Source of the DNA: Flammula alnicola
Taxonomy: Eukaryota > Basidiomycota > Agaricomycetes > Agaricales > Strophariaceae
Length of the DNA stretch: 64,000 nucleotides
Reading direction: 5' to 3'
Assembly: GCA_015499995.1 (NCBI GenBank)
Contig: JADNRV010000202.1
Coordinates: 1 to 64,000 of the forward strand
Each line of letters begins with the position of its first letter. Position 1 is the first letter of the stretch. A model generated the notes under the pieces. It had not been told where the DNA came from. It ran no database searches and was given only the letters and a program-made list of their open reading frames with translations. This document shows, piece by piece, positions 1-20,268 of the stretch. Made by a program: the position numbers and the translations under genes.

Positions 1-5
1 TCATC

Positions 6-119
6 GGCGCTATAGCCAAGTGGTTTACGGCGACAGATTCGAATTACGTAATCTTAGAATTACGTAATATAAGTATCTGTTCCTCTTTGAGGGCGCAGGT
101 TCAAATCCTGCTGGCGTCG
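6..119 (+). tRNA. tRNA-Ser (anticodon CGA) with a 31-nt intron
   Basis: The cloverleaf folds cleanly. A 7-bp acceptor stem (6-12 with 112-118, two wobble pairs) is followed by a D arm GCC/GGC (15-17 with 29-31), an anticodon stem ACAGA/TCTGT (33-37 with 76-80), a long variable arm CCTC-TTT-GAGG (82-92) and a T arm GCAGG/CCTGC (95-99 with 107-111) with loop TTCAAAT. The discriminator is G119. The long variable arm and G73 are serine hallmarks, and the anticodon at 40-42 is CGA, reading UCG. The intron occupies 44-74, one base 3' of the anticodon, which is the canonical nuclear position. Box A (TAGCCAAGTGG) and box B (GGTTCAAATCC) are intact. The mature length is 83 nt, normal for tRNA-Ser. The intron contains part of a 12-bp direct repeat (GAATTACGTAAT). 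Confidence 0.95.
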
Positions 120-125
120 CTTTGC

Positions 126-130
126 TTTTT
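126..130 (+). terminator. RNA polymerase III T-run terminator of the tRNA gene
   Basis: Five consecutive T residues begin six bases after the last mature base of the tRNA, the usual pol III stop signal. A second T4 run follows at 133-136. Confidence 0.7.
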
Positions 131-423
131 GTCTTTTCTCGGCGATACAATCTCCGGTCGTCGAGTGGACACTATAGCTGTCACTACCTCCGCGTGTCTA
201 AGAACTTTTGGTCGCTCAGGGACATGAGCTGTTTCCGCTCGACGTAGAGGTCCTGGAAAGCCGATACGGACAAGTTTTCATTCACAGGATATTCCACACC
301 TCATCTTCTTAAATTGTACATGCAGATGTCTTCAATTGATTGATATTCTGTTTCTTTTCGGAATTATTCAAAAGTAGAACGACAGACTGAATTCCCTTCC
401 TACGGCTTCTCTAACATCATATA

Positions 424-2582
424 GATGAGCTCGATGCACCTGATTTGAAAGACACACTGAAATCTCTATCTCTTTGCTGCAATACGTTGCTTCCTCTGGC
501 GCAAAGCATAAATTTTCAGACGATCCGACTGGACCTTGGCTATGGCAGTGCCTCCCCACCTCATGTCAGGTAGGGCTGGGTTATTTATTATTTTGGCCAT
601 GTTAGAAATGTGATAAATTTTCGGCATCTGGGCGGGTATTAAACACGTCTGTTATTAACGGTGTTTTATTATGTCATAAGGTTATGTAATCAAGAGAAAA
701 CGGCCCCTTTTGGAGACCTTTTGAGTACGCTTTCTGCGTTAAAGAATGGGAATTAAGCAATAAAATGTATTCCTACATCTAGAAGAAGCTGTCAATGCCC
801 CACTCTCCCGGATTTCCAACATCCTGAGCTTACGAGACACTGGAAGGTGCCCGGGTCACTCGTCACAGCTGTTACTCCCTTTTACTCGCTGCGCATTCTG
901 TACATGGTCCAATGCAATGCATTTTTACTGCATAATCTATCCAACAGCCATCCATGACAATTTATAATTTATCACAATAAATCACCGACCATTTTGACCC
1001 CCTCCGTGTTATAAATGTTATTAACCTGTTAATAACACGTGATAAATAGGTATGTTATTAACACCCAATAAAAAACCCAGCCCTAATGTCAGGACTCCCT
1101 GCCTTTCCAGCGTGTTCGCCCTATATTCCTCACTGCGTTCATTCCATCAGCCTCACAGTTCTATCTACCGATCTGGATTCCCCATTGGAGGGTGGAATGT
1201 TGTCCATGTTAGGCGGAATCATTGCTCCTTCGATCGCCAAGAGGAGTTGTACCTGGAATACTATCAGTATCTAAGCAAGAGGCCTTTCCTGTTGGAGTAG
1301 GCCAATCAGGCTTACCCTAGGAAGCCAGGGCTCGGATACGCGTCGAGCAAGCCGTTCGGTGTCGCGTCGAAGGCAAAGGCAAGGATCTTAGGATGCGCGA
1401 CCGCGAGCATCCCACATATAGACATGCACTGCCTCTGATGGCATCTAATCTTAGTCTATCTGTCTAATCTAGCCGAGTGCCCTGTCAGATCTCACTACAC
1501 CATTGCCCTTGGATTGGCCTATCGTGCGCCGACGCGAAACCTTTTTCTCTGCCATGGAGGCCACCTTGCGCCCTCCGGAGTTGCAGAGACTGAGGTTGTG
1601 TCATGTGGTCAACTTTCCTATTGAATTTGTGATGGATAGAAGCAAGACGGTGGCGTACGAGAAGATGAGTATTCCCACTACATCGGAGTTCGTGTCATTG
1701 AAAGTCTGGCTGATAATCCGATGATAACTACAATGACAGCAGATCCTCCTCCTCCAGCTCGACTGTATGAGTACACAAATATGGGCGATGTCCGTGAATT
1801 GTATCCACAACTGTCTGATATAGGGCGCCGTTCATGCACATGGACAAAAGTGTGTACACAGAGCCGATCTCGTCCTACCGTCTTTGGACTTTACGCGTCT
1901 CAGACAGCTTATGGTGCGGTGGAAGCGTGATGATGACATTGAACTTACGAAGAGGCTGATGAAAGTCGACCTTGACCTAAAGTTTAGCTGTACAAGTGAG
2001 CTGTGTTTCATTATTTCTCGGCATGCATCGAGGACACATACGGGTACCCATTTGACATCTAGGAAACTTTAACTCTCTGGACTGTCTAGGGTACTTCTGG
2101 CGGGCCCAATCAGAACCTCGACGCTCACTCTCGTGGTGTTACGCCATTGCTCCGGAATCGAAAATCGCATAAATGTAATAACCTCAAAACTGGAAGCATG
2201 GCGCGGGAACAACGTCCTGGAACACATCGTCGTCGCTCTCCATATCATTCAGTATGACCTTGCCCCCAATCTGAAGCACATTGACGATATCATTCATAAA
2301 ATTACGTCGGAGGCAAGTCGGAGGATGCCTGCGCTCGGTTTCGATTGAGGTTCATGTCTCGCCGATGGCGGGGCATATGGCGACTTATTGCTCCTCAACT
2401 GGAATGGAACTGCAGGTGATAGATCGAGACGTTTTGGAGAAGCGGTATGGAGAGGTGTTTGTGGGCTTGACAGCACTGCTTCGACTGCGTTGATGCAGAT
2501 AGAAATACCTGAAGTCATCAGCCGCCCTCTCAATCCTTCTATCGAACACTACAGCCGACTGACATCGTGCTCTCTTTCATAG
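424..2582 (+). pseudogene. F-box/leucine-rich-type protein gene, decayed and transposon-interrupted
   Basis: Before 571 one frame reads an F-box-like helical stretch with the motifs TLKSLSLCCNTLLP and INFQTIRLDL. After 1085 it resumes, shifted by one base, as ACSPYIPHCVHSISL, the usual opening of the first leucine-rich repeat in Agaricomycete F-box proteins. Further blocks continue in shifting frames: LQRLRLCHVVNFP near 1585, a stretch with NVLEHIVVALHI near 2200, and a C-terminal block with VIDRDVLEKRYGEVF near 2420. The order of blocks is that of a complete gene of this family, but there are several frameshifts and a 515-bp insertion, so no product is expected. Family assignment is inferred from motif style, not from a search. 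Confidence 0.6.
571..1085. mobile_element. hAT-like miniature inverted-repeat element (515 bp)
   Basis: The left end TAGGGCTGGGTTATTTATT and the reverse complement of the right end, TAGGGCTGGGTTTTTTATT, match at 18 of 19 positions. The element is flanked by a perfect 8-bp direct repeat ATGTCAGG at 563-570 and 1086-1093, the target duplication length of hAT transposons. The interior is AT-rich with repeated GTTATTAAC/ATAACAC palindromic pieces and has no transposase frame, so the element is non-autonomous. It lies inside the F-box pseudogene. Removing it together with one copy of the 8-bp repeat brings the two coding blocks next to each other, out of frame by one base. Confidence 0.85.
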
Positions 2583-2840
2583 AAAGGTCTTATTACAGGG
2601 TTGGCCTCGCCCAATCGCTTTCTTCTATTATCGATCCGATGAATCATCCATCCTTCTGATGGCATTACTCGAGTACATCTTTAATGGTCATGATTTTGTT
2701 CATTGTTCTGTGTACCAGCGCCAGTTGGGGTGACTGACGTAGACGTATTCTATTTTTTTCATGACTGAACAGCCTAAGTATATTACAATGAATGTTGGGC
2801 TGGTACTAAATCTCACGAGCCTGCTACGCAATCACAAGCC

Positions 2841-4042
2841 CTACCTGACTCTCCGGTTCATATCTTCAAAATCGGGATCACCATTGAGACGACGTAGCGT
2901 GCTCAAGTGAAAATTTGGCTGCATGGAAGGTTATTCACGAGAAAAATATGGATCGGAACATGATCAACTCACCTCATACGTCAAAATCCTCGATATCAAG
3001 TTGAAATTGAACCTCCTATTCAGCTCTTCCAGCGTTTTTGCTTTCCAGACCCAGGCCTTGCCAGCCATCTCCATCATCCCGGGGTGGCGCTGCTTGTTAG
3101 CGATGCGGAAGACGATGCCTTTGTTGATAAAGGTCTGGAATTCCTTAAGCCATTGCGCATGCGGCGCGTCTTTGTCCAGTTCGAAGTCCATAAGGGTAAC
3201 GCGGAGGATATATGGTGCGGTGTCGCAGCCTGAGGAAACTGGAAAGATATGTGTTCGTCATGAGTCTCGAGATGAATGAGGCCGTCGAAACGCGTAATAG
3301 AGAACTTACATATACTGGCCACAGTACCGACCAGTCCCGGACAATCTGAAGGGTTCGGCGACGCCTCGGTAATACTAGGACGGTAAAAAATCATCGTCTT
3401 CTCCTCAATCGTGAGCTCTTCAATAGGTCCTGTGGGGTCGTCACGGAATCCGGCCGATTGTACAGTGAAACGCGTCGCAGGGTTCACATCCTCCTGGCCC
3501 GGCCTTCTTTCTTGAAGCTTGACGTCCAAGTACCGGTTCTCGAAATCGAACGGTCCCTTCTTCAGCTCGAGATAGAGCGCAGACGATACGGCGGTCGTGA
3601 TGGTGTGTTTGTGCAGCATGCAGAAGTCTTCGAGGTTCCGGCTATGCCTCTGGTCTTTGATGCGTTGGGCAGTAATTTCTGGGGCTTCGTTTTTCATATC
3701 CTCTGCTGTCGCGCGGTATTTCTCCCGCAAGCTGCACATGGGTTTATGGGAGCGCCAGTCCCCGACTTGACATTCGCGGCTCTGTCAATGACCGACACGA
3801 GATTAAGAGAAGAAATAGGTATAAAATGGAAAAGAACTGAGCGCACGTAAGAATGGTCAGAATGCACCACTTACACAGTACCGAGCCGACTGGCATGACG
3901 CGCAGACCGAGAAAGGGGTTTGTCCTGGACGTCTCACGACATGACAGTACTCACAGGCGTGAGGACGGTTCTTGCTGAACGGCAACTTCTCGGACTGTTG
4001 CTTAAAGACGGTTTTCTTTTCAAAAGGGTTCCGCGGATTCAT
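2841..4042 (-). CDS. MYND-type zinc-finger protein (324 aa, four exons)
   Basis: Exons run 4042-3875, 3781-3310, 3229-2973 and 2918-2841; every junction has GT...AG and keeps frame. The MYND zinc-binding residues are all present: C30, C33, C47, C50, C56, C60, H68 and C72. The first intron falls inside the finger, directly after C56. The remaining 250 residues have no motif I recognise; similar proteins with an N-terminal MYND finger and a long uncharacterised C-terminal part are common in Agaricomycetes. MYND fingers usually mediate protein-protein contacts, so a regulatory or adaptor role is an inference only. The last exon (25 codons, ending MNRRVR) is supported by a consensus GTGAGT donor after TYE and by an in-frame stop. 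No signal peptide or membrane helix is seen. The gene looks intact. Confidence 0.85.
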
Positions 4043-4264
4043 AGTTTCGAGGTGACATCCAAGTTGAAATGTTTGGTACTAGGTAGAAGGAGACACCTAG
4101 TAAAGTTACGACTTATCTTTGTAAATTTAAGGGCCCAGGTCAGGGCCGTTGCCTGTTATGGTATGCCGTCAGGTCATGCCGTTGATCGCGTTGATCGGTG
4201 ATGGCCGTGCACGTGATGTGACCGACCCGCCACGCATTTGGCCTTTGCCCGGTGGAGAACGAGT

Positions 4265-5377
4265 CTGAAATGAATATTCCGGCTCACCGACTCATGAGCC
4301 GGACTCCGACTCACCCGTCACACGTCAAACTGCATTTTATAATATTGGCCTAAGTACCTCCTAAGGATGTCCTTGAGGTTCTCGGAGAGTATATAATAAG
4401 ATAGAGATCCTGAAAAACATACCTTGAGCCTCAGAGAGAAGTATACAGCATGTAAAGTCCTCTTGGCTACTGTTTCTGTGTCTGTACATCAAATGGAAAG
4501 AGACGCTTCCTCAAGGCCTCAAGTCTGCTTGTATTCACCAAAAATAACATTATGTTTATTACATATGCATGTAAGGTTTAACGACATATAGCGTTGTATC
4601 TACGTGCTATCATGACAGGTGTACAACGGAGGCGGAGGCAAAAGCAAAGGCGACAGCTCGCGCCGCGGGCGGGGAAATTACCTATCCTCATCTCCCGCTT
4701 GCAACGGCTTCATGGCCTCGCTCTGCCGCCGCTGGCTTACTCTCAACGACTCCCACCACCGCCGTTGCCCGCCTCTGGTTCTCTCCCCATCGCTCGTTCT
4801 TGTCTCTTGTTCTCATCGTTGTTCTCGGCATTGCAGGAGCACCATATTCATACCATCTCTTTGTATTCCTCCCCCTGCTTCTTAGCTCGTCGCCGTTGCT
4901 TTCACCTGCGTTCTTGGCCTGGTATTAGGTGTAGTCGATCCCGGCTCCACATCCCTTTTAGAGGGGAGGGGCTCGCAGGTTGCGAGATGGTAAACCGTAG
5001 GCTGGCAGAGATGGTTGATGGGCGGCGAGTCATGATGGCGAGGTGGGAGGACAAAGTGGGCAGCTGGTGCTGGAGCGTTGAAGACGTCGAAGGGGATGGT
5101 GGCGGGAGGAAACTCCGGTGACAGGAAAGGAAAGCGGCGGCAGTGTGATGATCATGTGACACGTTTTTGCCTTTTATGTTCACGTATGGCGGCAAATTTA
5201 CATTCGTGATAATTGTCACCAGACACTCGAAATTAGGGACAAGAAATGCACAAATATGTTCAGAGAAGCTCAGAGATAACTTATGAGGAGCAAGACTCCA
5301 GAAATACCAGATACAGGCTGTGCCGGAGGATGAGTCGGACTCCGGCTTGTGCCGGTGAGCCGGAATATTCGTTTCAG
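4265..5377. mobile_element. Putative inverted-repeat element (1.1 kb)
   Basis: The segment 4265-4313 (beginning CTGAAATGAATATTCCGG) reappears inverted at 5331-5377 with about 85-90% identity over 47-49 bases. AGTC stands at the outer edge of both copies and may be a short target duplication. The interior contains overlapping reading frames of up to about 175 codons on both strands, rich in Ser/Pro/Arg, with none recognisable. No transposase signature is visible. It could instead be a large palindromic remnant of an older element. Confidence 0.45.
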
Positions 5378-7227
5378 TCATTTTTTGGCCCGGTGGGTTT
5401 TCCCCCGTTCGAGGCCTGGGAACTCTCGTTCACGGCTCGGAAAACCCCGTTCGAGGAACGCGTGTTCGGTGGTTGCGTAACCCACGGGGGTGGGGGTTTT
5501 ACCGTTTTGGCAGGCACGCGCGCTGCGCAGTGCGCAGTGCGCGTGCGCGCGTGCTGCTCCTGCTCGGAGCTTGCTCTCGCTGTCTGCCCTCGAGGAGCTG
5601 AGCACCTGCCATCCCCTCCCCTCACGCAAAATAGTAGTAGTAGGTTAGACGTAATTCAAGCTTAAATTTTCGAATATGAAGCCTCCGAGGGCAAATTGTG
5701 AGCGCTACAAGGATTCCGAGCCCAAATTTAAGATTAAGTAGGAGTTAAGCTTAAATTTCTTAAATTCTTTAAATTGGGCTGGTTCAAATCTTAAATTGGG
5801 CTGGCGGAACACAGAATGGAGACTCGGAAAAGCCAGCTCGCTGCCTGCGGCGTCTGGATTTTGCGTTGTACGTACTGGATTGGTAAATTCGGACCCTGTT
5901 CGCGAACTGGCATGCCCCTCATTATGCAATCACCTTCTCCCGTTGCCGCTGGTTCAGCGGACGGCATTGCCCACCTGCTCAACTCCAGTGTTGCACTGTT
6001 TTTTCTCTCGCTGCGTGGCTACATTCCCTCCCTAATCCAATTTTGCTCCCTTCCACTTTTTTTTGTTAGCTTACTGTACAAAGCAATATATTTTCTAAAA
6101 TTTCTCAGCCTGCGGCCTCATTTCTATGTATTCTACAGAATTCACTGCATCCTATTGTGCATCCTATTGCATGTGATAACAATCCTGGGGGCACCCAGAC
6201 TTAGTGATGAAGCTGCCTGTACCTCTTTAGGTGCGTACGACCCTTGGTGCGACCCTTTGTCATGCTGTCAGATCGCGAATCTCAAATTTAGCGCGGCTGA
6301 CAGCCGTGTTAAATCCACGGTAAATTCAAGTGAATAAACAGACTTAATCATGACAATTGTCGAAAACACGTGACGCCTGAAATCGCACTGTGGCTCTCAT
6401 CGGTCCAAAACTATTACTCTACCTAACCATCTCTCTCATATTAACCCTCCTCCTCCCGTCTCCAAATCTCTTATGTTTGATTTATCTACCTTACTTACTA
6501 CGATGCGCTGGCGAGGTAGCATAGTTACCTGAATTACTTATGTAATGTAGTCAGCCAAAATTTATTCTAATTCTAACTCATCAGCATCTTCATAAACACC
6601 ACCCGGACGTTGATCTCAAGCGCATACCCAGCAATAATTTTGATCCGTCCTGTGCATGTGGAACGAACGATAATCGGTGACTAATCAGGGCAACAACTTA
6701 CAGCAGGAGCTGCAATATTTGCAGGACTGTAAGTTCAACCCCCCGACCTGCTAACCTCCATGTCGAAATCTCGTTTCGTCCTGTGTCCAGGTCCAGGAGG
6801 AATCACAAGGCTTAGGTAAGAATACCCACATGAAAACTTTCCCAGGACGCGCAGCCGTGCAGCCTTTGGTATGCTGTTCATCCCTGTTCATCCTCACTCC
6901 CCACATGTTACGGAGCATATTTTGGACCGTCAACGAGCGCACTTCATTATTCTCTGTCGAAAGGCAACCACATTCATGTTTTATACTAATAGGATAAGAT
7001 TTCAGGTTGATGGGCATAAATAAGGTGCAACAGCACAATTTATGATTGGCATGCTCTGGCCGTGGATGCTCCTCGCGCTCATTTTCTTACCTCCACGATT
7101 GATGAGTGGCACTTGTATTGGGCATACAGATCTGTGGGTGCCATTCTACCATTTCAAGGGCCAATACAGTCCAAACATTTCTAGCACAGCCAGCAGTATA
7201 TATACGCTTTGAAATTTCATCCTACTA
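5378..7227. other. Non-coding stretch with GC-rich and AT-rich patches
   Basis: A GC-rich patch at about 5390-5600 (GTTCG and GCGCAGTGCGC repeats) is followed by an AT-rich patch at about 5640-5790 in which AAGCTTAAATTT and TTAAATTGGGCTGG recur. I see no supported gene. The last 200 bases are probably the 3' flank of the minus-strand F-box gene half. Confidence 0.4.
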
Positions 7228-7968
7228 CTATTCCTGTGTCCCTCTACCAATCTTGAGCGGCAGAACATCCGTGAGTGCTATATAACAATCGACACCAATG
7301 GACCTGAGCCCTTCCAATTCTTTCTTGAAATCTTGTCCCTCCTCCAGTCCACAACTTGAACGAGGAATCACAAGGTAGAGAAAGGATAATGATGTGCATG
7401 GAGAAGAGTAGACACGTTCATGGTTCGTGTACAAGGTTCCAGGGACCGGCGAGGGACTCAGAACTCGCTCGTTCCTTCTTCTAACCATGGACAGGACATG
7501 CTTTCCGTTTATGGAGCTGCACTCGAGTGTTGTTAGCTGAGAAAGCAACTCCCCTGTGACGAGCTTCTCGATTGTTGGTGCTTGAATGTGAATACCCAGT
7601 GGTAAATGGAGGCTGTTTATGTTACGGATAATGCCGAAGAACTTCTCCAGCTCGCGAGAAGGTGCTTTGGGGCGTCGTCTGTTCGGGATGACCCATCTCG
7701 CATTTTCTGGCGACATGGCGAATATTGGCCCCGGAAAGTCAGACAACCATAGCCGTCGCAGAGACTTGGTCGAGCGGCGAAGAAGATTGGTATATATTCC
7801 CATGTCCCAGTCTTCAAAAGTACCCTGCATAAAGATCCATAGGTCTTTGAGCTTCGGGAAGCAAACGAGGAAGAAGAGTCGAGGGTCCTGGGTCGGATAG
7901 ACGAGCCTGAGCTGCAAACTTTCCAATTTCTTCACCGTAACTTCGCTAGGTGCAAGTCGAAGTTGACT
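7228..7968 (-). pseudogene. C-terminal half of an F-box/LRR-type gene, cut off by an insertion
   Basis: The open frame reads into leucine-rich segments typical of the second half of Agaricomycete F-box proteins: VKKLESLQLRL, CFPKLKDLWIFM, SLRRLWLSDFPG, then a charged region with LEKFFGIIRNINSLHLP, SQLTTLECSS and a C-terminal FKKELEGLRSIGVDCY block. The frame stays open upstream only through the end of the neighbouring transposable element, so any ATG there belongs to the element. The missing N-terminal part lies at 10996-11626 on the same strand, beyond the 3.0-kb element. Together they make a plausible single gene, with the natural junction near residues KPAYP/SQLRLAP. It is unlikely to be translated correctly now. 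Confidence 0.6.
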
Positions 7969-8719
7969 CATCAGGAAAACTCCATCCGTCTGGCTCGTCT
8001 GGCGCCAGACACCCCAGACGCTGCCAGACTGCCATAAATGGTATGGTGACATAATTGACGCTCCCGACGCCATAAATATTTTGCATCCAGAACTCATTTC
8101 TGATGCCCAACTGATGCCATATCTCTGTTCTGGCGGCACAATAATTTATGATGACATACTCCCAGTCTCTCTCAGTAATGTTTCATTTCAACAGAACAAA
8201 GATGATATCGTCGAATCCAATTGTATTTCAGATAAATAATCTACAAAATATTATACTACTCATTGAATCAGAGGCAGCCAGGCAGTCGGTATGCAGGAAA
8301 AACCCTCCAAACCTGCACTGAAGAAACGACCTGCATCAGTAAACTGCTAATCAACATGGTAAGACCACTGGGATGGCCCTAGCCCAGCGGGGCACCTCTC
8401 ATCCTTCTTTGCGGTCTTTTCTGTCTTCGTTGCAAGGATTCAGTACCAGTCTGCACAAAAGAGGGCATGCGAGTACGTGCGTCAAGAGTTGTTCATGGGT
8501 TGTCATGGTCATTCCTGCGACAGAACGACAGGGAGATGGGTGACGCGAAGGCCCCAAACAGCATGTTCTGCACAAAAAGGGGCAGTCAGTGGGCTAGCGG
8601 CGATGTGTGGGGTAACTTGCCACGTACCAATTCCCTCCTTATCCTCTCAATGCTGAATTTGGTGGTCAGCATCACTGTTGGCGTCGTCTGCACCTCTTCA
8701 TAATCTGTCTGAAAAGGAG

Positions 8720-9490
8720 GAGGGGGTTAGCAGCAGCGGAGGGGTGGCTTGCCACTTACATTGTCGCCATGTCTCGTCAGGCAGGCGTATCATCTTCTAT
8801 GTGTTGTCAGACAGAGGAGGTCTCCTATGCAATCCTACGTGTTGTCGGGCAGTGAGCGATGCTTATCTGTGAGATGGGATATGGCGGTACCGCGGCTTCG
8901 GCTGCTTCTCGGGCCTGCGCTTCTTGCATCGACATTTGTAGAGCCTATAAGAGAAAATCAGGAGGTCGGGTAGGTGAGAAACAGGGCAATGAAATCGAAT
9001 AGGGATACACACTGTCGCCAACTCGGGATCCAAGCTTGGATCCATGCCGAATTCGAAGTTGTTGGCTGCGCTGGGACCGCCAGCTGCGGGTGCTGCACCG
9101 GTGCCGCCGAGTTCTTCAGGGATGCTCGCGCTTCTGTCAGCGGACAGAATGGGTGAAGAGATCAGCATGTCTGAAAGGAGGTGGGGGCCAGGTGCGACGG
9201 TTAGTAGGTGTCTGCAAGATTGTCGCGGCGTCAGTCAAGGAAATATTTCAAAATAGGTTAACATACGAGTTATCGCCCCCATTTCAAGACCCTTTCACCC
9301 TCTCCTTCCTCGATACCATCGCTGAACGCTATGATGTCCACGGTGACATTGTTCTTCTTTAGCTTCTTCATGAGCTTGACCATTGCTTTCTCGTCGCTGT
9401 CCTCGTCCTCGCCCGGGGGGGATCCAACAAACACGATGATGCGCTGTCGGAGGTTCTTGTTCTCTCTGTGTTTGAGGGCCAGCTGTGCGA
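8720..9490 (-). pseudogene. Captured fragment of 26S proteasome subunit Rpn10 (ubiquitin receptor)
   Basis: Exon-like segments appear in order. About 9490-9280 reads QLALKHRENKNLRQRIIVFVG and EKAMVKLMKKLKKNNVTVDI, the second half of the von Willebrand A domain. About 9211-9015 reads HLLTVAPGPHLLSDMLIS and FEFGMDPSLDPELAT. About 8946-8873 reads ALQMSMQEAQAREAAEAA, the ubiquitin-interacting motif. A further exon-like piece with TDYEEVQTTPTVML lies near 8705. Introns between them have normal signals. The first half of the VWA domain, including the start codon, is absent upstream, and the linker after FSDGIEE runs into a stop. Rpn10 binds polyubiquitin at the proteasome; this copy lacks its proteasome-docking start and is a fragment. 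The intact gene must be elsewhere in the genome. Confidence 0.8.
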
Positions 9491-9602
9491 CTGCAAGTGA
9501 GGGATGAAGGAAAGGTTCAAGTTGTCATCGACCAAAGTTCAACCATATCAACAAAGTCACGTGCATCGGAGTTTGAACTGACTTGTCAAATTGATGAGTA
9601 CA

Positions 9603-10502
9603 CAGCTGCCACAAAGAATGATGTCACACGGCAACACCTGGCAATGGGAAATTAAAGTTCTTTGAAGAACCCATCGCTGACCCATCGATGATGCCCATCA
9701 ACTAGACAACACAAAAAGGAGCTTCGTGGCCATAGAAGTATCCGCGCTGGAGAATTTGACCCCAGGTACATACAGTTGAGAAATAAAAGATTTTAAATAT
9801 GTAAGACTGTCGCGAACATAGAGTATAAGTATTGCCGCCCCGTCTGAGTTGGAAACGGTTTGGATTTGTGAGATGCTCTCATGCATGTCTGTGCATCAAA
9901 TGAGTCGCTGTTGGACGACTTCTAAAGACAAACGAAAATCTTTTAAATCAATAAAATTCATTTCTGAGGCTTGATTTTTCACAGGAAAAAAAATGATTGC
10001 ATGCTCTCCACTTCAGGAAACACTCACTACACCTTACAACCAAACAACAAGCATCGATTCATGGAACATCATCACAAAATTTCGGAAAAACAAGAAAAAA
10101 TCACAATAGATAGGGATAAAAATACAAATTGGATATGAAAACTCTAGCATTCAAGGATTTTACTTATTTTCTACCAAGGAGATACTGACATGCATAGGAC
10201 TTCAAGCGAGGAAGCGGCCGAACCGGACAAAAATGGATAACAAGCATGCAAAAAAAATGCTCCAGATGAATTCGAACGAGTGACCGCAGATAGCATCAGA
10301 ATCATACACCAATTACCACTACACCATCGTTCCTTGCGTATCGCTTTGAAGCGAAGAACTATATTGCATCTGTGATTGCCCGCAGAAGAGAGAACTTTCA
10401 TTTCCTTTGACAGGGAAGGCCGAGAAGCCAGGGAAGCTGTCAAGTGGAGCTTCAGAGAGCTTCGGGCCTTCGGCCCTCATACGTCATTCTTTGTGGCAGC
10501 TG
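9603..10502. repeat. Nested 900-bp inverted-repeat unit inside the 3-kb element
   Basis: CAGCTGCCACAAAGAATGA at 9603-9621 recurs as its exact reverse complement at 10484-10502. The 19-bp perfect match suggests ends of a smaller element inserted in, or forming a module of, the larger one. The interior is AT-rich and contains a tRNA-like segment but no recognised protein. Confidence 0.4.
10250..10333 (-). repeat. tRNA-like (SINE-type) remnant
   Basis: Read on the minus strand, a box-A-like TGGTGTAGTGG is followed about 40 bases later by a box-B-like GTTCGAATTC and then by a run of eight T (10257-10250). The arms do not pair well enough for a functional tRNA: the T stem is broken. A degenerate tRNA-derived SINE or an old pol III pseudogene would fit. 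Confidence 0.3.
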
Positions 10503-10995
10503 CATTTTCCAAATTGTTTGAACACCTGAGCTGAACTCCCGACTCTCCTCAATCCTCATCACTGCGGTTCTTTGCACCTCCCTTGATTTTGCTGTTGCCC
10601 TTACCAGTATTCCCGGCACCATGTTGCTGATCACTAAGAATTCACCTTTACATTCCATACAGCATGATGACGAAGCTCAAACTGATTCAACTGACCAAGG
10701 CAACGCCAGCTACGGAAGGAATCATTGAATTGTATTCGTTGTGAGTAAATAAAATGTAACATAGTTTTTAGGTATCAAATAGTTGCTGTAATGGAATTGA
10801 AGTACTTAAAACAATCCCTGTATTCTGAGGAGTCTGGCAGTCTGGCACAAAGCTGGAAGAATTTTTTCTTCTGACAGATTTGTGGTGTGAATACAGATTT
10901 CTGATGATGTCTGGCACAACCGTGTTTCTGGTGTCAGACCTGCCAGACCTGTCAGACGTTCCAGACAGTGCCAGATGGATGGGGTTTTCCTGATG

Positions 10996-11626
10996 GAGGA
11001 TAGGCAGGTTTAGTGAATTTGATTTGAAAACTGGCATATTTGACGGACGACACTTCCTGTATAAGCTTGATAAAGACCTCGGGCATCATGGCGGTGGCTC
11101 CCATGTCAAGCTTGGTCAATTGTCCCCAAGGTGCATGAAGGTTGAAGGGGTGGAGGCCATTTAGGAGGCGCAAGGTGACTTGGCGGATATTTGGAAGGGA
11201 GCGGAATACAGTGAAGTTTAACCACTGTTCGATGGTGAACGAGGAATGGCGTACGTTCACGCTGTTCATGAAGCCAATATCGACCGTCTCCAGAGACCGG
11301 AAGCGTCCGCTTTCAATATTCAAGAAAGCCTCGATACTTTGTGGTCCGTATAGAGGACACGTTAGGGTTTTGATGCGTTCAGCGTCAGCAATAATGATTG
11401 AGTCGATCACTGTGAAACCCCATCCGCCATAGACCATCCTGAAATTGAGTGCCAGGCTGTTGTTTCCACTACGGTGGAGACATAGAATAAATTGACGAAG
11501 TAGTGTCAATATCTTTTCAGGAGGGACGGGCGTGAAATCCATGTGGTCCCAAAAGGATGGGGCTAGGATGACATTATGCCACTGCCTCGAAACGGGGGTG
11601 AAGACTCGAGGATCTTCAGATTGCAG
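10996..11626 (-). pseudogene. N-terminal half of the split F-box/LRR-type gene
   Basis: The frame contains VSRQWHNVILAPSFWDHM, the end of an F-box domain, followed by leucine-rich segments LKTLTCPLYG-like (read here as IKTLTCPLYGPQ), FRSLETVDIGFM, FRSLPNIRQVTLRLL and WGQLTKLDMGATAMM. It runs out into the terminal repeat of the 3.0-kb element at KPAYP. The continuation is the leucine-rich block at 7228-7968. A short upstream exon around 11830-11640 (with FPAVILQTLMRSSLYLSAF) may be the start of the F-box, but I could not find a clean splice to it. F-box proteins recruit substrates to SCF ubiquitin ligases; this copy is broken. Confidence 0.6.
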
Positions 11627-13482
11627 TGGCAGTCACACTGGCTCGTTTATCCCACAGAATACAAGAATGCGCCGGAGTACGGTGTCTGGGAAAATGTAGG
11701 AGCGTTGCGGAGCTGGCATCGGCCTCGCTGAACTTTCTATTATTGGCATGGATGACGAATGCGCTGAGGTACAATGAGCTTCTCATAAGTGTTTGGAGAA
11801 TCACAGCTGGAAACAAATTCCCTGCTGGGTAGTCCTATAGGCAAAAAAAATGGTCAGTATGATTCCAGAAGGGCGGCTCAGAATCCATCTAACCTGCTGG
11901 GCAATAACTTGACCAGCGATTACACGACCTGAATCGCCACGGCCCACGAAAAGCCTGGCGGGACGGGGGAGGGGGTTTAGGGAAGGGAATTGGGGGTTAT
12001 TTTGAAGCATGGCAACTGGGTGTTTATTTGAGAAAGGCTAAACTGAGGAAGGCAGGAGGAAAGACCCCCAAATGAATTCGCGCAGCCTGTCCCTGTTCAA
12101 CATGGCAGACAATCACCCTAAACAATCAGTATTCCCACAATGCAACACTGTCGACTGACCAATAACATTTCTTCCCGATGGATTACCTTGAACCATGGGC
12201 CTGGTATTTATTCACATCGCCGAGCCTGTTGCAGGGAAACTAAAATTTAGGACTTGAGGTAAGTAAACGTTGCACCTCATGGCACGAAAACGCGAGAGGT
12301 AAATGTCTTCCCCTGCGACGCAGACACTAATCGGCTCGTTCATCGAGTCAGGGAGAAAAATGGAGTCGGAGGACAATGTAGAAAACTGATTGCAATTGGG
12401 AAAGGCTTGTTTGAGGGTCTATTGTACTGCGATACCTGACCAGTTTTACGAAAGTTTCTATAATATTTTTGCGAATGTCATGTGTACTAATAAATAGAAA
12501 TCTTCCTTCGAAGCGGAACCACGACACCTGGAATTTTACCTCCCAAGAAGCCCGAAATGTGAGTTGGCTCCCAAATAACCATAACCATAATGCTGAACAC
12601 TTGTAACTCAGAAGGTATAAATAATATATCCATATGGCTAATAGTACTGAGTGCAACTTGAACCTGCGCATGATTCGCGATATGGCCGACTGAACAGATG
12701 TTCGCACCAGCACATACCGTACGCTAAAAGCTCGCGGCAGCTTGCTATGCTCGACTAATGTATCTAGATAATTGTGTTCAACTATATAATATGGTTTCAT
12801 GCACACGAGCGTCAGTGAGAATGCCTTAGTTTTGGGCCTGTTGCCACTTCTCGTCACCATCGAGTTACATGGTGCAGGGATGTGAGTGGCGTTGTGATTC
12901 CTCCAAAAAAGAAGTTCGACCAATGCCACGCACGCTTTTTATCTGCTAGATCAAGAAGTGTGTTGTGTTCCAGATTGTGCAGTGCGTCGGTACGCACGAT
13001 GTTGTTTCCCGCCGCCTATAGTTAGGAATTATGACGCCCTCACTGCGTGCTGTTTGCTTGACGTTGGTCTCATTCCATTGATTTTGGCCAGATTTTAAAC
13101 AGTAACAGAGAGAGATAGTCTGTTCTTAATGGGTACTTAACGTAATCCTTAATCTGCATTAAAATGTCAACGGAAAAACATGAGGTTCAAGGGCAGAAAT
13201 CCGGATTAAAACTCGCCTTGCGACGCCGAAAAACACGGAAATAAAGACCTCAATCCATGGTGAGTGTCAATTCGGTATACATCTGCGTCAGCACAATCAT
13301 GTATGGGGAATAATCCACCTACTTATTTTGAACTGTTCATGCTGGCTGGCCATTCCATAGGTCTAAATGTAGCATACCTGAAAGCTAGATGTATGGATTG
13401 CCCGAGAAATTTATCGACGAATGAGAGCAAAATAAAGACCTGCTTTTGAGCCAATTTTGAGCCGCACTGGAAGACTGTCAAT
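11627..13482. other. No supported gene
   Basis: The region contains possible upstream exons of the split F-box gene (to about 12010) and a 193-codon open frame on the minus strand (12929-12348) without recognisable motifs or family-like composition. I see no promoter, repeat or RNA gene. Confidence 0.3.
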
Positions 13483-14522
13483 AAAGTTACTTTTCCGGGT
13501 CAACTTGCTAACTTGCGGCCTGCAGAGGCCGAGATGCCGGTGCAGGGGATGAATATTCAACTTATTCCCACGCCGACGACAATCTAACTTGCAACTTGCC
13601 CCTCACTTAGAGTCTTAGACTAACTTCTACTAACTCATGCAACACGGTGGCTCAAGTTGGCTTGTGCAAATCACAACCAAGTGGTATGTGTGCGTTCAAG
13701 TGTGTGCAAGTCAGGGCAAGTGCGTCCATGTTAGGGCGAGTGCGTACAAGTGTGTGTGTGAGTGCGTACAAATACATGCAAGTGCGTGCGAGTGAGTGAA
13801 GGTCGGTGAGGGTGAATGAGAGTGAGTGGCTCAGGTTATTGTGAAGTGAGTACAGACGTAAGTTGTCGCATGCTGTGTGAGTGCTCGTGCAAGCGCCCGT
13901 TAAGCGCCCATGGATCACGCGTAAGTGCGCACGACTTGTGTGACATTTGGTACGGCTGCTAATTCATGTCATAACTTCGGACGAATTTTGTTTTTTCCTG
14001 GCATAATAATCCTTTTAAGACATGATCTATCTAGTTTTTCATGCTATTGGTGGACGTGGAAGAGTGTAATTATTATACAAAGATGGTCATTTCCACGGGA
14101 ATGCACCTGATACAAATGCAGGTTAGCCTTTTTAAGTCGAGCGCACCATCGCGCTGCTGCTCAAGCTGTAAGTTAGTTCTACAGAATGCACCAGCTAACT
14201 GGTCAGCTTTGCAACTTAAAATCCTAGCTTGAGATGTAATTTTGTATATTTATGGTCTATATAATGGTAGCTACTAACTTAATACAAGGTAAGTAAAGGT
14301 ACGCAGACGGCAACAAGATCGGCAGTCAGGCGGGGGCAACATGTAGCCGGCCGCCGGTGGGCCAAGCCAACTTACTGCGCAAGCGAGCTGTGCCAAGTTA
14401 ACTTGTTGCGGGCATGATCACTGTGCCAAGTTAACTTGTAACTTGCGACAAATCAACTTGCCTGCCAAAAGTTAGCACAAGCTAACTTGTTGCAGGCATA
14501 AGTTAGTTGCACAAGTAACTTT
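13483..14522. repeat. AACTTG-rich element with short inverted ends
   Basis: The left end AAAGTTACTTTTCCGG and the inverted right end AAAGTTACTTGTGCAA share their first 11 bases. Both subterminal parts are packed with AACTTGC, GTTAACTTG and GTTAGCTTG variants, at about 13500-13640 and 14350-14520. Between them is a GTGCGTACAAGTGTG-type degenerate microsatellite (13690-13900). No protein-coding frame or target duplication is evident. It is most likely a non-autonomous DNA element. Confidence 0.45.
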
Positions 14523-15759
14523 CTTAACCACCTGCAAGACCGCACTGCAATACGCGATAGGTGAAGATGTGCGGGTCTTTAGTACATTTGTTGGCGGGGG
14601 CAAGCCCTCGATATTGATTGGCTCTGGGGAGCTCAGAAGTCAACTCGATTATATCTGCCGTGGCGGTAGGCATATCTTTTACGACCTTGTGGTTGCCGGC
14701 TGCGTTGACTAGTGTTTTAGCAGATTTGCGTTTCCCGAGAAATTTCCACCTACGCTTGTGCCTGTTGCAGCAGCCGAATAACCATTACCGTATCTTCCTT
14801 TGACTCTCGCCGACGGCTTCCTCCCTTCACTGTGCAGAATGACATGATCTCAATTTAAAGACCAGTGGTGATCATCGCTATCTCCATCGGGCTCGACATG
14901 TGCGCCTTGCTCCTCCGCACCCTGGTCGACCAGATAAGGGCGATGAAGAGGCAAAACGCACGTTCGAATCACTTCGCGCCAAAAGTATATCGGAAGCAGA
15001 GCAAACGGCTTGGACAAGGTACTCGCATAAGTGGTGTGGCGACCATAAGTGGTGTGACGACCAGAATCGCAAAAGTCCACCTTGATCGAAACCAGCGTTT
15101 GATATATGTCTTTCTGTGTCATATAATCAGATGACTGGTTGTTTATTGTTCAGAGGAAAGCTTGAAAACCGAGGTTAGAACTTGCACAGAAGATGATTTG
15201 AGGATGAAAAGAAATAGGAAGAAATCAATGTTACTAGCGTCCCATCATACACAGATATACAGAATAAATAGACCGTTGATTCTGCGATTCATGATATATA
15301 GCAACGCCAACATTATAATTGTAATCCGGCTGCAGGATATTTCATATTTTCGTTGCCGATGAACTCACTATATCAAACCGGAAGGGAATTCGTAAAACGC
15401 TTGCGAGGTCCGGATTGGTTGACAGAAATGCGTCTTTCGTACAGGCTCGTTCCATGGAGATATGAAATCTCAATGAATGTCTTTCATATGCCGTGAGGGG
15501 TATTTGTAGTAGGTGTATCACGCATATGCTATTGTGTGCATGTGAACACTGAAAGAAACGTAATTCAGAATATTTTTCTAAGCTCGTCAGGCCGGACTTA
15601 CAATAGAAGGTTAGTTTGTGCGCATAACTGACAATTTTACTGTCCTACTGGGCAGGCACGGAGTTTCGTATTGCGTTGCGAATTCGAAGTTTCTGTCTGA
15701 GCCTGACCTGGATCCAAAAAATTTACGTCCGTTGTAAAAGAACTCCGTCAATGTCAAAT
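14523..15759. other. No supported gene
   Basis: Short overlapping frames occur on both strands around 14870-15130 (one with a charged stretch AKRTFESLRAKSISEAEQ), but there is no convincing exon structure. The rest is AT-rich non-coding sequence. Confidence 0.3.
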
Positions 15760-16249
15760 TCAGACGAGATATTTGCTCACCAAGTTCTTCTCTACTACCC
15801 GGGCGATAGCCAGGGCCTCTTTTATGAAGGATTCAAATGCGTCCGCGCATGAGTGTGAATAAGATCCACCAATGGGTCGCCATCTTAAACCTCGAAAGCG
15901 CTGGCAGTGTTCCCTGATGTGGGTAAATGATGAGCGCGTGAGATTAAAAGCGCCCAGACGCACAATAAGGGACAAGAAAGCAAGATACTTACATTGAGAA
16001 GTTATGTACTTTGCGATAAAACCGAACTCCTTCCACAAAGTATTCTCGAAACATTTCTATAATATGGACGATGTTGCAGGCATCAGCGGTGGCAAGAGCC
16101 ATGCCATTTGGGTAAGGTAAGTCGTATGCCATCTCTAAGTAGAGTATAATTGTCGTAGTTTGTTGCAAAGCATCTTCTACGAAGTCGAGGTCCAGTTCCA
16201 TCGCCATGAGAATGGTTGAGCTCGAGAATAGTGAGAGTATGAATGCCAC
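15760..16249 (-). CDS. Small two-exon hypothetical protein (136 aa)
   Basis: Exon 1 is 16249-15993 and exon 2 is 15913-15760. The intron (15992-15914) has GTAAGT and CATCAG signals, and joining keeps the frame through a split ATG codon. Without splicing the first frame stops immediately after the donor, which supports the intron. The N-terminus has a short hydrophobic stretch (FILSLFSSSTILMAM) that could be a signal or weak membrane segment, followed by an acidic helical region and a C-terminal helix (FIKEALAIARVVEKNLV). I do not recognise the family. Additional 5' exons cannot be excluded. Confidence 0.45.
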
Positions 16250-16551
16250 AACGATCCAGTGGCCAAGTTGCGAGAAGGGCTACGTTATATGCAGCATGAC
16301 CGTATTCAATGGCCCAACTCTTTGCTAAATGTGGAGGGTGTAGTAGAAAGTTGGCAGGACGTGTCAGGACAAGGATTCTTTATTTCGACTATACCGGGTC
16401 ATGGACCATGGCAAATTGTTGCAGAGCGTTATACAGGCTGCGAGGGTTACTCAGATAGTCAACACTTGTGCGCTCCACTAGCATGTTCTTGGCGGACGTT
16501 CACTTAACTGTTGCAGGACGGGTCAAGAGTTTTCGTTATGTTACTGTACTT

Positions 16552-17003
16552 TAGGGTTGCGGAAAAAACTCCGAATAAGTTCCCAAGTGTAAGTTACAAT
16601 GTAATTTACATGTAAATTACCTATTTTATGCAAGTCCAGAAATCGGCCTTGCATTTTATGCATAAAATTCTCACGTGATTTATTTTGTGGCAAAGGCCTA
16701 TGTTGGTCTGTTACGCGTTACATCAACGTTACATCTATACAGGATGAGGCTGAGCACTGGGAGGTACTTTCGAGCTCGGTGAGTGGGTCTAGGGACGCTG
16801 GGAGGTCGTTCGAGCGCGGTTGGAGCACGGTAATCTTATCAGATTACGATTTCTGCAGCCAGCAGGCGGAGTCACGTTTTGTAGCGTGGGAAAATACAGG
16901 GTTTGTAAATTACGATGTAAATTACATTACATGCCACCGAAAATTGCGGACTTTGTAAATTACATAGTTACATGTAGGCCAAGGAATAAGTTCCGCAACC
17001 CTA
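16552..17003. mobile_element. hAT-like miniature inverted-repeat element (452 bp)
   Basis: The element has perfect terminal inverted repeats TAGGGTTGCGGAA and a perfect 8-bp direct repeat CTGTACTT at 16544-16551 and 17004-17011. The interior carries several TGTAATTTACAT/TAAATTAC palindromic units and no coding frame. The TAGGG start and 8-bp duplication match the element at 571-1085, but the interior and the inner part of the repeat differ, so they are different families of the same type. Confidence 0.85.
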
Positions 17004-17011
17004 CTGTACTT

Positions 17012-17944
17012 AAAGTTAACGTGTCGAATCCAGATGTTCGTGGGAATAGTCCACGTGATCCATAATATCCCTTACCTCAGATTCCAGAGTCAGACGGTAC
17101 TTTCTTTTCTTAAAGCCATCCACACAATTAGCCAATCAAGTATCCGCAGAAATAGCTGTAATCTTGCCCCACGTCAAGTGGTATGAAATCGAACCTGAAA
17201 GCGTTTCGGATTATCCTGATGGTCTCCGTCAACAGTCAGACGACAATCGGACCACGGCTCACGAAGCAACAATAATAGTTGGCATGGAGGCTCCTGGAGG
17301 CTTGTTTGCTCTATTGTCCCGACTTCGAACTCAAAAACCTCAGCGCGTGGCAGTACTGGCGTAACACGAACAGCCGCCAGTTTGTAGGTATTTGTTAACC
17401 TACAGCTCTTGTATTTTTGATGTTAACTCATCTATTTGTAGCGTCAGGCCTGGGAGCTTTCAGGACCACCGATTTCAGATAGACCGCTAGAATATAATCC
17501 ACCTACCCAAGACATCCCACTACGCACCGAGGATTCCCTCTATGTCTGATTCTTTTACAGACCTGTCGTCATCATCAGCGTCTCTCGCACGCGCATTGTG
17601 ACATTATTCACCAACAACGCCAGGCTGCCAATTTGACCTGAATCGCCATGTCCAGTCTTCACTTAGAACCTAAAGGCTACTTTTGAAACGGCACCGCCCG
17701 GGTGGAACCGCCAGTGCACCCCGGAGAGCGCGGCGTTCGTCGCCTTGTTCGAGAAAAATGCGGTCATCACCCGAACATGTTAGCGGCATCCCTAACCCAT
17801 GCTGAAGGACCGGATTAGAAGAGGGGCGCTGCTAGTTCTGGGTTGTGGTCGAGCGCATATAGTATCTTCAGGATCAGGAGAACATCGAGGTGCATTTTCT
17901 TATCTTTGTTATTTTCTTTGTTCTAACGATGTCAGTCGAATAGG
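17012..17944. other. Mostly non-coding; a short coding-like patch near 17670-17790
   Basis: Around 17670-17790 (+) one frame reads ATFETAPPGWNRQCTPES and ALFEKNAVITRTC, which looks like an exon of a conserved protein, but I cannot name it or extend it. The rest shows no gene. Confidence 0.3.
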
Positions 17945-19190
17945 TTCCACATGCTGCACTTCTACCCTCCGTGGCTTTCCTCTCCGTCGCTGATGGACTC
18001 CACTCGGCCAATCGATTCGTTAATGTCTCCCATGCTCGACACCCTACCCGCAATCGCCAACTCTCTATCCCAACCCCCATTCGCCTCATCATCCTCATCA
18101 AAACTGAGACCGTTGAATTATCATTACCTAACCCCCTTCTTTTCCGCCTTGACGCCACTCACCACCACCCATTTGATCCTCTTCGCTCCGCATCTCCAAA
18201 ACCTTCTCATCTTCCCCCCTTCGTTCATCTTACCTCCCCGTCGATTGTGGCCCCACACCGACTGTCGGCCGTCCATTTCACAGCCGGAGGCAGGCTTTGA
18301 AGGCGCATTCGTCTTCCCATCCCCGGGTGGTGTTCGATGAATGATGAGCTCAATTCTGAAGAAGATGCTGCAGAGCAGGCGGAGGATGACGAGGAGAGGG
18401 ACGAGAGATCGATACTCCGGCTGAGTGCATTGGAGTTTATGATTAGCTTGTCAGAGGCGAGGCCTAATATGGCGAGGAAGGTGCCTGGTTGGACGAAGAT
18501 TATCGTTGGGGCTTGTTTGGAAGGGATGGGTGAGTTGGATTAGGATGAGACGACAGGGCTGGATGCTTGATTACGGGGATATGTACGTTATCGTTTTCCA
18601 TTTTCGTTTTAGTTTTAAATTGGTCATTCGTTTTCATAATACTACTACTTAGCCCTCGACAAGCTTGAGCTCAGCAGAGACAGACGCTCCTCCTGCTCTA
18701 GATGTACGAGCAATCGCTAGATCGACTCGCTTGTGTTATGGGCGATCAATCGATCCTCCCTCCCGCATTCCGGGTATTCAAGTGGTTTCTCCATCCTGCC
18801 GAGCATCTCTTAACCTTGCATCTCATTTCCCTTTAGTTCATCCCCTCTATAAAGGCCAGCTACGACTGACGAGTCCTAAACGCCGGGATCGGCGCCATTG
18901 GGGAGGGCACGGGGAAGCTTCGTCCCTTTTTCCTTCTTCCACGTCTTTTTTCTTTCATGGATCCGCATTGTATCGCTGGCTGACATCTCTTACAATCATG
19001 TTCCTCAACATACGTTAGGTCGTGCAGAACGAACTCGAGAAGACCATCGAGTAAGTTCTTTTCGCTTCTATTTTCCGCGTTATTGACTGATTTTTGACTC
19101 ATTGCGCAATTTTCTTTCGTTCTGTAATAGGCTGGTAGCACCGACTTTCAGCGATTCGTATCGGTATGCTGCATTCTGGTGTGTGTAAGT
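17945..19190 (+). pseudogene. Importin-beta (karyopherin, Kap121/Kap123-type) gene remnant
   Basis: In changing frames the plus strand reads pieces of a HEAT-repeat importin in the correct order. ETVELSLPNPLLFRL is near 18110 and HLQNLLIFPPSFILPP near 18200. ERSILRLSALEFMISLSEAR through GWTKIIVGACLEGMGELD is at 18397-18540. MYEQSLDRLACVMG and QSILPPAFR are near 18700, GAIGEGTGK near 18890 (with an internal stop just before it), VVQNELEKTIE near 19025, and a PTFSDSYRYAAF piece near 19150. Importins carry nuclear proteins across the pore. Here at least four frameshifts or stops are visible and both ends are missing, so this is a dead partial copy. Confidence 0.75.
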
Positions 19191-19722
19191 TCTTTTATAT
19201 CGTCTTCCTCATAATGGTTTATTGCTCTGATTTGTTTTGGCGCGCGAGAGGACAACTATGTATCTTGGGTTTAACACTTACGATAATGATGAGGAGGGTG
19301 CCGAGGAGGGCTGAACGTTGAATGCTCAGAACAAAGCTGATGTATGAACGATCTCCTCGGTTTCTTTAGAGACCTTTTTTCATCTTTATATTTCTTAGGT
19401 CGCATAGAATGATATGGCTCTGTTTATTTCCTCTTCTTCATTCTTTCTCGTTATTCCGTTCATTTTTTTTGTTCTACATACATTCGTGCAATAAGATTTC
19501 AAGTATGGATAATACTGTATATCTAAGTGGTTGCCATTGCCATCACAAACGAAGGCCACGTCAGCACCTTTGTGTCAATCAGCACATGCATGACTATCCG
19601 CAGCACAGCACTAATAATAACCTAATCAGCACTCGCAGAAAACACACGATCACCAATTCGACGGCACGCATTTCCACTGTGTTCTTATTCAACAAAATAC
19701 CACGTCAAGCTCCCGACAAATA

Positions 19723-20268
19723 ATGTCCCTCACGAACCCGCCCAATGATGGCCCTTACTATCTCCTCAAATCCACCTCCGCTACATCGAACTACAATGTC
19801 CTTTACCTCCGCTATACTGGGAGCGGACACTGCGAAACAGTGCTTACTCCCTCTCCGCCTGTGTTCCTTCGCTTCTACGACGGCCCAGATGGGCGAGTGA
19901 TGGCCAGATCGTGGAAACATCTGGAGAGAGTGTGGGGTTTTGTCGCTGCTGACGAGACTGAGCAAGGAGGGGATATTGCATTAAGAATGAGAGAAGGGGA
20001 TGGAGATGGAGGATTTAGTTGGGTTGCTGACGAGCAGGGAAGGGAGGTGTTGCACTGGAATAATGTGTCCTCTGGTGGCAAACAGTATACTGGTTGGATG
20101 GCTAGGGATAGCCCGCCGGAGAGATTCAATGGCTTTCCGCAGGTCCATTGGAAGAAGGATAAAGATGAAGGAGACCTAGACAAAATGATCGGGTTTGTGA
20201 GGGAGTGGGTGGATTTTGAGTCTGGTAAACCCCTTGCGGCCGGAAGTGGCGAGGGAGATGTCGCATAA
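19723..20268 (+). CDS. Hypothetical protein, single exon (181 aa)
   Basis: This is an uninterrupted frame starting MSLTNPPNDGPYYLLKS and ending at TAA. The composition is protein-like (aromatic-rich and hydrophilic), with a beta-rich first half (YLRYTG, PPVFLRFYDG, WGFVAAD) and an acidic C-terminus (GDLDKMIGFVREWVDFE). There is no signal peptide, membrane helix or recognised motif. The start is chosen as the first ATG of the frame. Unlike the broken genes on both sides it has no internal stop, so it may be a genuine lineage-specific gene, but I cannot assign a function. Confidence 0.5.
   Translation: MSLTNPPNDGPYYLLKSTSATSNYNVLYLRYTGSGHCETVLTPSPPVFLRFYDGPDGRVMARSWKHLERVWGFVAADETEQGGDIALRMREGDGDGGFSWVADEQGREVLHWNNVSSGGKQYTGWMARDSPPERFNGFPQVHWKKDKDEGDLDKMIGFVREWVDFESGKPLAAGSGEGDVA

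Follow-up and report, generated by a model that had tools for sequence, protein, structure and literature searches.

Does a piece of a ubiquitin receptor gene lying inside an F-box-like gene of the mushroom Flammula alnicola record a meaningful union of two genes, or merely the passage of a mobile element? The question is raised by a 64,000-nucleotide stretch, positions 1 to 64,000 of contig JADNRV010000202.1 (C116:1-64000, referred to throughout as the window), in assembly GCA_015499995.1, which comprises 74.4 Mb in 861 contigs. A preliminary description of the window had proposed that two halves of one F-box gene are separated exactly by a 3027-bp gene-capturing DNA element that carries a fragment of the proteasome ubiquitin receptor gene RPN10. 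We consider it very probable that a PlavakaB-type Pack element captured part of RPN10, transposed, and inserted into one haplotype of the F-box-like gene, with a later loss of CpG sites.

Boundaries, copies and empty sites of the element

The element occupies positions 7969 to 10995 (3027 bp, including a nested insertion). Its left terminal inverted repeat (TIR), CATCAGGAAAACTCCATCCGTCTGGC, covers 26 nt on the forward strand (7969 to 7994), and the right TIR another 26 nt on the reverse strand (10970 to 10995). The two are 92% complementary, in agreement with the inverted repeats of about 26 bp described initially. The TCTGG-rich subterminal repeats were likewise borne out, with six TCTGG/CCAGA motifs in the first 150 bp and seven in the last 200 bp versus two in the 2677 bp between.

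Within the same assembly, contig C445 reads straight through the insertion site, and the joined flanks of the element align to it over 2575 bp with 98.2% identity. The window junction reads GTTGA-CT-element-GAGG versus GTTGAGG at the empty site, which amounts to a 2-bp target-site duplication (TSD) of GA (left copy at 7965 to 7966, right copy at 10996 to 10997) and two extra bases, CT, on the left (7967 to 7968), missing from the empty site and not found at the sister copies. Two bases brought along from an earlier site would explain the CT. Since it accompanies the GA duplication, the host gene was not split by quite as exact a cut as first described, although the boundaries stand. Nor is all of the 3027 bp the element itself, as 918 bp of it (9592 to 10509) belong to an unrelated repeat nested within it, which has the inverted repeat CAGCTGCCACAAAGAATGA close to its termini and dispersed relatives at ca. 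84 to 86% identity on C107, C590, C42, C168, and C9. To judge by its borders, this repeat is probably flanked by a CAAAT target duplication. Because the corresponding element positions (1624 to 2541) are missing from all three sister copies, the basic element is ca. 2.1 kb long, and the second repeat would have landed later inside the window copy. Just beside it, at 9535 to 9587, lies a motif of ca. 53 bp with CACGTG and an inverted AGTTCAA that occurs at ca. 30 other places in the genome, including the interior of two related elements on C101 and C246.

Genome searches, in which copy counts are lower bounds, recovered at least three further copies of the whole element at unrelated sites on C24, C46, and C283. 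They match element positions 1 to 1623 at 94% and positions 2542 to 3027 at 96 to 97%. The terminal motif given in the preliminary description was found at 31 places across the 74.4 Mb (up to 2 mismatches) versus 1 for a reversed control, and a longer motif ending in TCTGG at 47 places versus 0 for the control. The sister copies are bordered by the direct repeats AT, CA, and TG. A directly adjacent 2-bp duplication is therefore present in three of the four Pack copies, the fourth being the window copy with its GA and extra CT. Identical adjacent dinucleotides were seen in 18 of the 20 elements with both flanks read (16 loci, C77, C246, an element termed X, and the window copy), the exceptions being L024 and the window copy. 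Left out of this count were loci at which the stretch examined held one end only (L017-L019, L028, and L047) or no end (L048); L017 is the right end of C77 and re-enters the count as C77.

Matching empty sites are known for two of the four Pack copies. For the window copy, the site is without insertion at C445 and in total at six of the seven F-box-like loci examined (C445, C203, C100, C857, C83, and C4), the seventh, C357, being too diverged for the seed used. For the C283 copy, the insertion is nested inside X (L011, C283:9574-13117), another TIR element ending in CATCA..TGATG. A copy of X on C377 has no Pack insertion, and the comparison of both shows the TG duplication. X itself, which starts CATCAGCAAAAAG, has an AA duplication and its own empty site on C16. 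The element is mobile and moved as a unit. Partial gene copies do also arise through segmental duplication, which in this case would have carried RPN10 between unrelated repeats with no transposon at all. Since the ends are sharp and identical at all four unrelated sites, with 2-bp duplications, and two empty sites are known, this explanation has a negligible probability.

Given the part played by C445, its relationship to the window matters. It is colinear with the window between positions ca. 188 and 21982, in seven aligned blocks that are 91 to 99.6% identical, with insertions interrupting the alignment on both sides, and RPN10 too is present twice in the assembly (C256 and C767). C116 and C445 look like the two haplotypes of a dikaryon; arguing the other way, a recent segmental duplication may have given rise to C445, which would then be no allele.

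Placement among known transposons

The termini CATCA..TGATG are present in all four Pack copies and, with the 2-bp duplications, agree with the description of PlavakaB elements, whose termini are given as CATCA..TGATG and whose duplications as 2 or 3 bp (PMC12730594). A Pfam search found no match to the Plavaka transposase domain (PF18759) inside the window element. A possible source of the enzyme is a 10.7-kb span, C77:70604-81347, with the same TIR ends, a similar subterminal layout, and an AG/AG duplication, which has PF18759 matches within 78632-79614. Because the ends and the 2-bp TSD fit PlavakaB and the C77 span holds the Plavaka domain, we class the window element as a non-autonomous, Pack-type PlavakaB-like element, an assignment made from its ends, its TSD, and the C77 partner rather than from a transposase tree. 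Several points weigh against this classification and the history that we attach to it. The placement draws on features other than phylogeny, one of the PF18759 matches in the C77 span has an internal stop, a transposase would have to act in trans on these ends, and the window copy has two extra bases next to its target duplication.

Several other classes were considered. Canonical CACTA/EnSpm elements have CACTA or CACTG termini and a 3-bp duplication, and the duplications of MULEs are ca. 9 bp long. The ends here are CATCA and the duplications 2 bp, which fits neither canonical CACTA/EnSpm elements nor MULE or hAT elements (Pack-MULE and Pack-hAT). Helitrons are devoid of both TIRs and target duplications and were ruled out by the element ends and the TSDs. 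In one source, canonical CACTA termini are given as CAC..GTG, and hAT duplications are said to be usually 8 bp (PMC12730594).

With a host gene piece between TIRs, a donor elsewhere, TSDs, and several copies, the element has the hallmarks of Pack-TIR or Pack-TYPE transposons, which upholds the Pack-type label of the preliminary description. The systems described under these names (PMC8277862 and PMC8903248) similarly have a host gene piece between TIRs, several copies, and a donor left in place; they come from animals and plants, whereas ours is a mushroom element with PlavakaB-like ends. Among the known systems nearest to it, the PlavakaB elements of the CMCT group (PMC12730594) have in common with it the CATCA..TGATG ends and 2-bp duplications, and a related full-size span with a Plavaka domain exists here. 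They differ in their passenger, a TET/JBP gene instead of an RPN10 fragment, and no transposase domain was found in the window element. That PlavakaB elements carry TET/JBP genes (PMC12730594) and that fungal TIR transposons capture genes (PMC3538342) was already known. In the latter case, transduplication in Pyrenophora tritici-repentis, TIR DNA transposons of a fungus also carry host genes, but the host is an ascomycete, the elements are hAT and Tc1/Mariner, and the cargo consists of near-identical copies of coding regions, among them a histone-H3-like gene (PMC3538342). The soybean Tgm-Express element, of the CACTA group, mobilizes gene fragments as well (PMC1947982); it is a plant element, likened to ours by description, ends and structure aside. 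The Helitrons that capture genes in Pleurotus are mushroom transposons carrying genes (PMC4289320), whereas the window element has TIRs and target duplications. Among the matches listed in a search of the open-access literature, there was no Plavaka element with a host gene piece other than TET/JBP. TIR-transposon gene capture is thereby extended to a PlavakaB-like element in a mushroom, in a genome where the donor can be seen alongside the sister copies, the empty sites, and a candidate source of transposase.

Related elements in the genome have the same ends with different interiors. A 1.41-kb element, present in at least 12 full copies, has in common with the Pack element ca. the first 113 to 124 bp and a terminal repeat of ca. 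35 bp, and nothing else, while the single elements on C101 and C246 have the common ends and a short dispersed motif. Among the four interior types compared, only the Pack element matched a recognized host gene in the genome. The genome search gave no recognized host donor for the C101, C246, and 1.41-kb elements, only the common ends and short dispersed pieces, plus a 65% match for C101. The latter is a 387-bp stretch of the C101 element (L012) that is 65% identical to C114:1541-1978 and C185:56424-56860, possibly another old capture. No Pfam domain was detected at an E value of 0.001 in eight stop-free stretches scanned from the four element types. Two much longer spans, C111:17190-71820 (ca. 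55 kb) and C176:25790-60259 (ca. 34 kb), have PlavakaB-type end motifs with Plavaka domain matches between them and are possibly very large elements or nested insertions; the C77 and C111 spans have the same flank on one side. A search of window positions 7000 to 12300 against Rfam found no family at the gathering score, and the one match with an E value of up to 1 (sR17, 19.7 bits versus the 36 needed; E value of 0.29) was taken as chance.

The captured RPN10 fragment and the split F-box-like gene

The captured fragment (8892 to 9508, reverse strand, 617 bp) covers the second half of the vWA domain and what follows as far as the first ubiquitin-interacting motif (UIM) and is 90% identical to C256:14157-14794 and C767:150420-151058. 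On both of these contigs RPN10 is intact, having besides the captured part both its start and a terminal exon with three UIM-like motifs (read by eye) and the stop, which rules out that the window holds the only RPN10 gene with its 5' half adjacent. The initial picture of an intron-bearing fragment that holds the UIM stands insofar as two introns are retained (9212 to 9266 and 8945 to 9012, both on the reverse strand, with GT..AG kept) and the first UIM is reached. It was incomplete in other respects, as the piece is cut at both ends, not just the 5' end, without the gene start and without everything beyond the first UIM, and its frame is broken. Since the introns are retained, the capture was from genomic DNA. 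A PlavakaB-type non-autonomous transposon would have taken up this piece between its ends, for example by template switching or gap repair, and would then have transposed as a unit through the transposase of a related full-size element, producing 2-bp target duplications.

The captured piece might nevertheless work and yield a ubiquitin-binding or regulatory RNA product, whether expressed by itself or joined by splicing to the F-box-like exons upstream of it. Fragment and host gene are indeed on the same strand, the splice sites of the RPN10 introns are kept in all four copies, and a partial 138-amino-acid NCBI model (P0126) exists for the C283 fragment. Another NCBI model, P0022 (C767 gene, L036), skips 11 nt at the place where C24 and C46 are deleted and stops beside the capture breakpoint. 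It is the only one named F. alnicola among the best 120 of 3518 hits for the RPN10 region. Pack-derived evidence may have entered the annotation, a weak indication. However, the RPN10 frame is broken in every copy: the window copy has a 20-bp deletion (approximately at 9277 to 9287, reverse strand), C24 and C46 have a common 11-bp deletion, and in C283 the UIM itself contains a stop. Not one of the four copies retains an open frame leading from the vWA part through to the UIM. Upstream, the host gene has an in-frame stop, and translation continued on the sense strand across the junction would end ca. 14 codons inside the element. Comparison with the C256 donor gave 12 synonymous and 16 nonsynonymous differences for the window copy (10 and 6 for C24, 10 and 9 for C46, and 10 and 10 for C283), with no clear sign of constraint in counts that are themselves no clear test, since some changes may be donor-side. 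We therefore regard a working RPN10 product as improbable, and the piece is best explained as passenger DNA.

The host gene, for its part, is a single gene, as first proposed: its C445 counterpart spans the site and aligns with the rejoined flanks, which excludes halves derived from different genes. Its N-terminal half (the part aligned to that counterpart) lies at 10997 to 11683 and its C-terminal half, to the stop codon, at 7228 to 7965, both on the reverse strand. The name F-box fared less well. PF12937 was found in four of five family proteins at E values of 0.0043 to 0.13, all below the gathering score; P0003 also matched PF00646 (E value of 0.82), and P0001 had no F-box match. Neither window half had a Pfam domain at an E value of 0.001, and PDB sequences contained no convincing relative of the family (one chain, E value of 0.43). 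Database relatives were restricted to F. alnicola (all 5 hits with an E value of up to 0.001 among 3087 candidates). The in-frame stop of the window allele is a TGA in the N-terminal part (11633 to 11635, reverse strand), and the C445 allele has a different in-frame stop in the same part; the NCBI model of the C445 protein omits the stop-bearing stretch, and family members P0002 and P0003 read through. Because both alleles have such stops, the insertion struck a member of a multi-copy family that was possibly impaired already. In the history that we favor, one of at least four copies of the Pack element would have entered this gene on one apparent haplotype and cut its frame, while the C445 counterpart stayed uninterrupted.

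The case that the preliminary description had called striking, the transfer of part of a ubiquitin receptor into a ubiquitin-ligase adaptor gene, is not supported as a functional event, given the broken RPN10 frames, the subthreshold F-box, the in-frame stops of the host, and the stop shortly inside the element. As the RPN10 piece is broken, its union with a putative ubiquitin-ligase gene is of little importance, and since the element is also found at three further positions, in one case within a different transposon, coincidence is the simplest account of the pairing. The description of a transposon-borne fragment fared better. Further copies of the terminal repeat (three of them in whole sister elements), full-length RPN10 genes, and an uninterrupted counterpart of the split gene, all of which it had named as worth looking for, are present in this assembly. 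None of the three outcomes that it had listed as fatal (no other TIR copy, a sole RPN10 gene, or halves from different genes) was found.

One-sided loss of CpG sites

The inserted and the empty allele differ in their CpG content. Within the flanks at 6342 to 13461 (up to ca. 2.5 kb from the insertion, element excluded), C116 lost 40 CpGs to TpG or CpA and C445 lost 2, and 181 are retained in both. Farther out (window positions 1 to 4110 and 14533 to 21000, where aligned), the losses were 24 and 21, respectively, and 504 are retained (Fisher p = 6e-6 for the asymmetry inside versus outside). C/T-type differences in the flanks at 6500 to 13470 had the T-type base on C116 in 43 cases and on C445 in 6. 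When flank changes were polarized by paralogs, C116 accounted for 38 (including 32 of the C-to-T type) and C445 for 7; with two outgroups, the counts were 33 and 3, respectively. The element itself follows the same trend, with 62 own changes in the window copy at aligned positions (43 are C-to-T or G-to-A transitions, and 27 fall at CpG) and 22, 10, and 8 in the C283, C46, and C24 copies. Its CpG observed/expected ratio is the lowest of the four copies (0.70 versus 0.81 to 0.85). For the host unit, the ratio is 0.82 in the window versus 0.95 to 1.00 in the C445 copy and four paralogs (paralog values over whole loci). The repeat flanking the C283 Pack copy is 100% identical to its C377 counterpart, so this second inserted/empty pair is too young to test the asymmetry.

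The inserted allele and its element copy would have lost these CpGs after the insertion; deamination of methylated cytosines, or a process like repeat-induced point mutation (RIP), is the most likely cause. In basidiomycetes, CpG methylation on repeats has been described and linked to silencing of genes that flank transposable elements (PMC13297926 and PMC9674265). In the Agaricomycete Rhizoctonia solani AG8, a CpG-biased RIP-like hypermutation between nuclei, commoner near repeats, is contrasted with plain deamination of 5-methylcytosine (PMC4014442). CpG to TpG differences between nuclei that are commoner near repeats resemble what we see, but there they form a genome-wide trend, whereas here a single locus has an inserted and an empty version. 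Because 5-methylcytosine deamination is reported not to leak from repeats the way RIP does (PMC4014442), a RIP-like process is favored over plain deamination.

On one reading, it was the insertion that created, in one nucleus of the dikaryon, a local domain of methylation (or of a RIP-like process) in which the inserted allele mutates its CpGs far faster than its uninterrupted partner. We hold this to be a serious candidate, falling somewhat short of an even chance. Against it, CpG loss was 21% within ca. 1 kb of the element versus 14% beyond, a difference that is not significant (p = 0.17), the depleted stretch maps onto a multi-copy unit (ca. 6602 to 13465) and ends at another insertion near 13461, and 5-methylcytosine deamination reportedly fails to leak from repeats (PMC4014442). 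Given these limits of the depleted stretch, the data fit both a spread of methylation from the element and a RIP-like process aimed at the repeat unit. A CpG loss unrelated to the element, in which a RIP-like process struck the F-box-like unit of ca. 3.8 kb as multi-copy DNA, would account for that coincidence and has the CpG-biased mutation near repeats of an Agaricomycete as its precedent (PMC4014442). It accords poorly with the high ratios of the C445 copy and the four paralogs and with the fact that the element copy inside the window unit is also the most CpG-poor of the four, and we consider it possible but less likely than not. If the insertion did seed the domain, the locus would be a natural matched pair for measuring transposon-seeded mutational decay in neighboring host DNA. 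At this locus, the inserted/empty pair lets one-sided CpG decay around a transposon be observed directly; since repeat methylation and CpG hypermutation near repeats were already known, the asymmetry is a clear local case and no new principle.

The flanks of the depleted stretch hold other differences between the two versions of the locus. Window positions 4110 to 6341 and ca. 13461 to 14539 are further stretches of the window haplotype that are missing on C445, and the second of them matches several other contigs at 86 to 98%.

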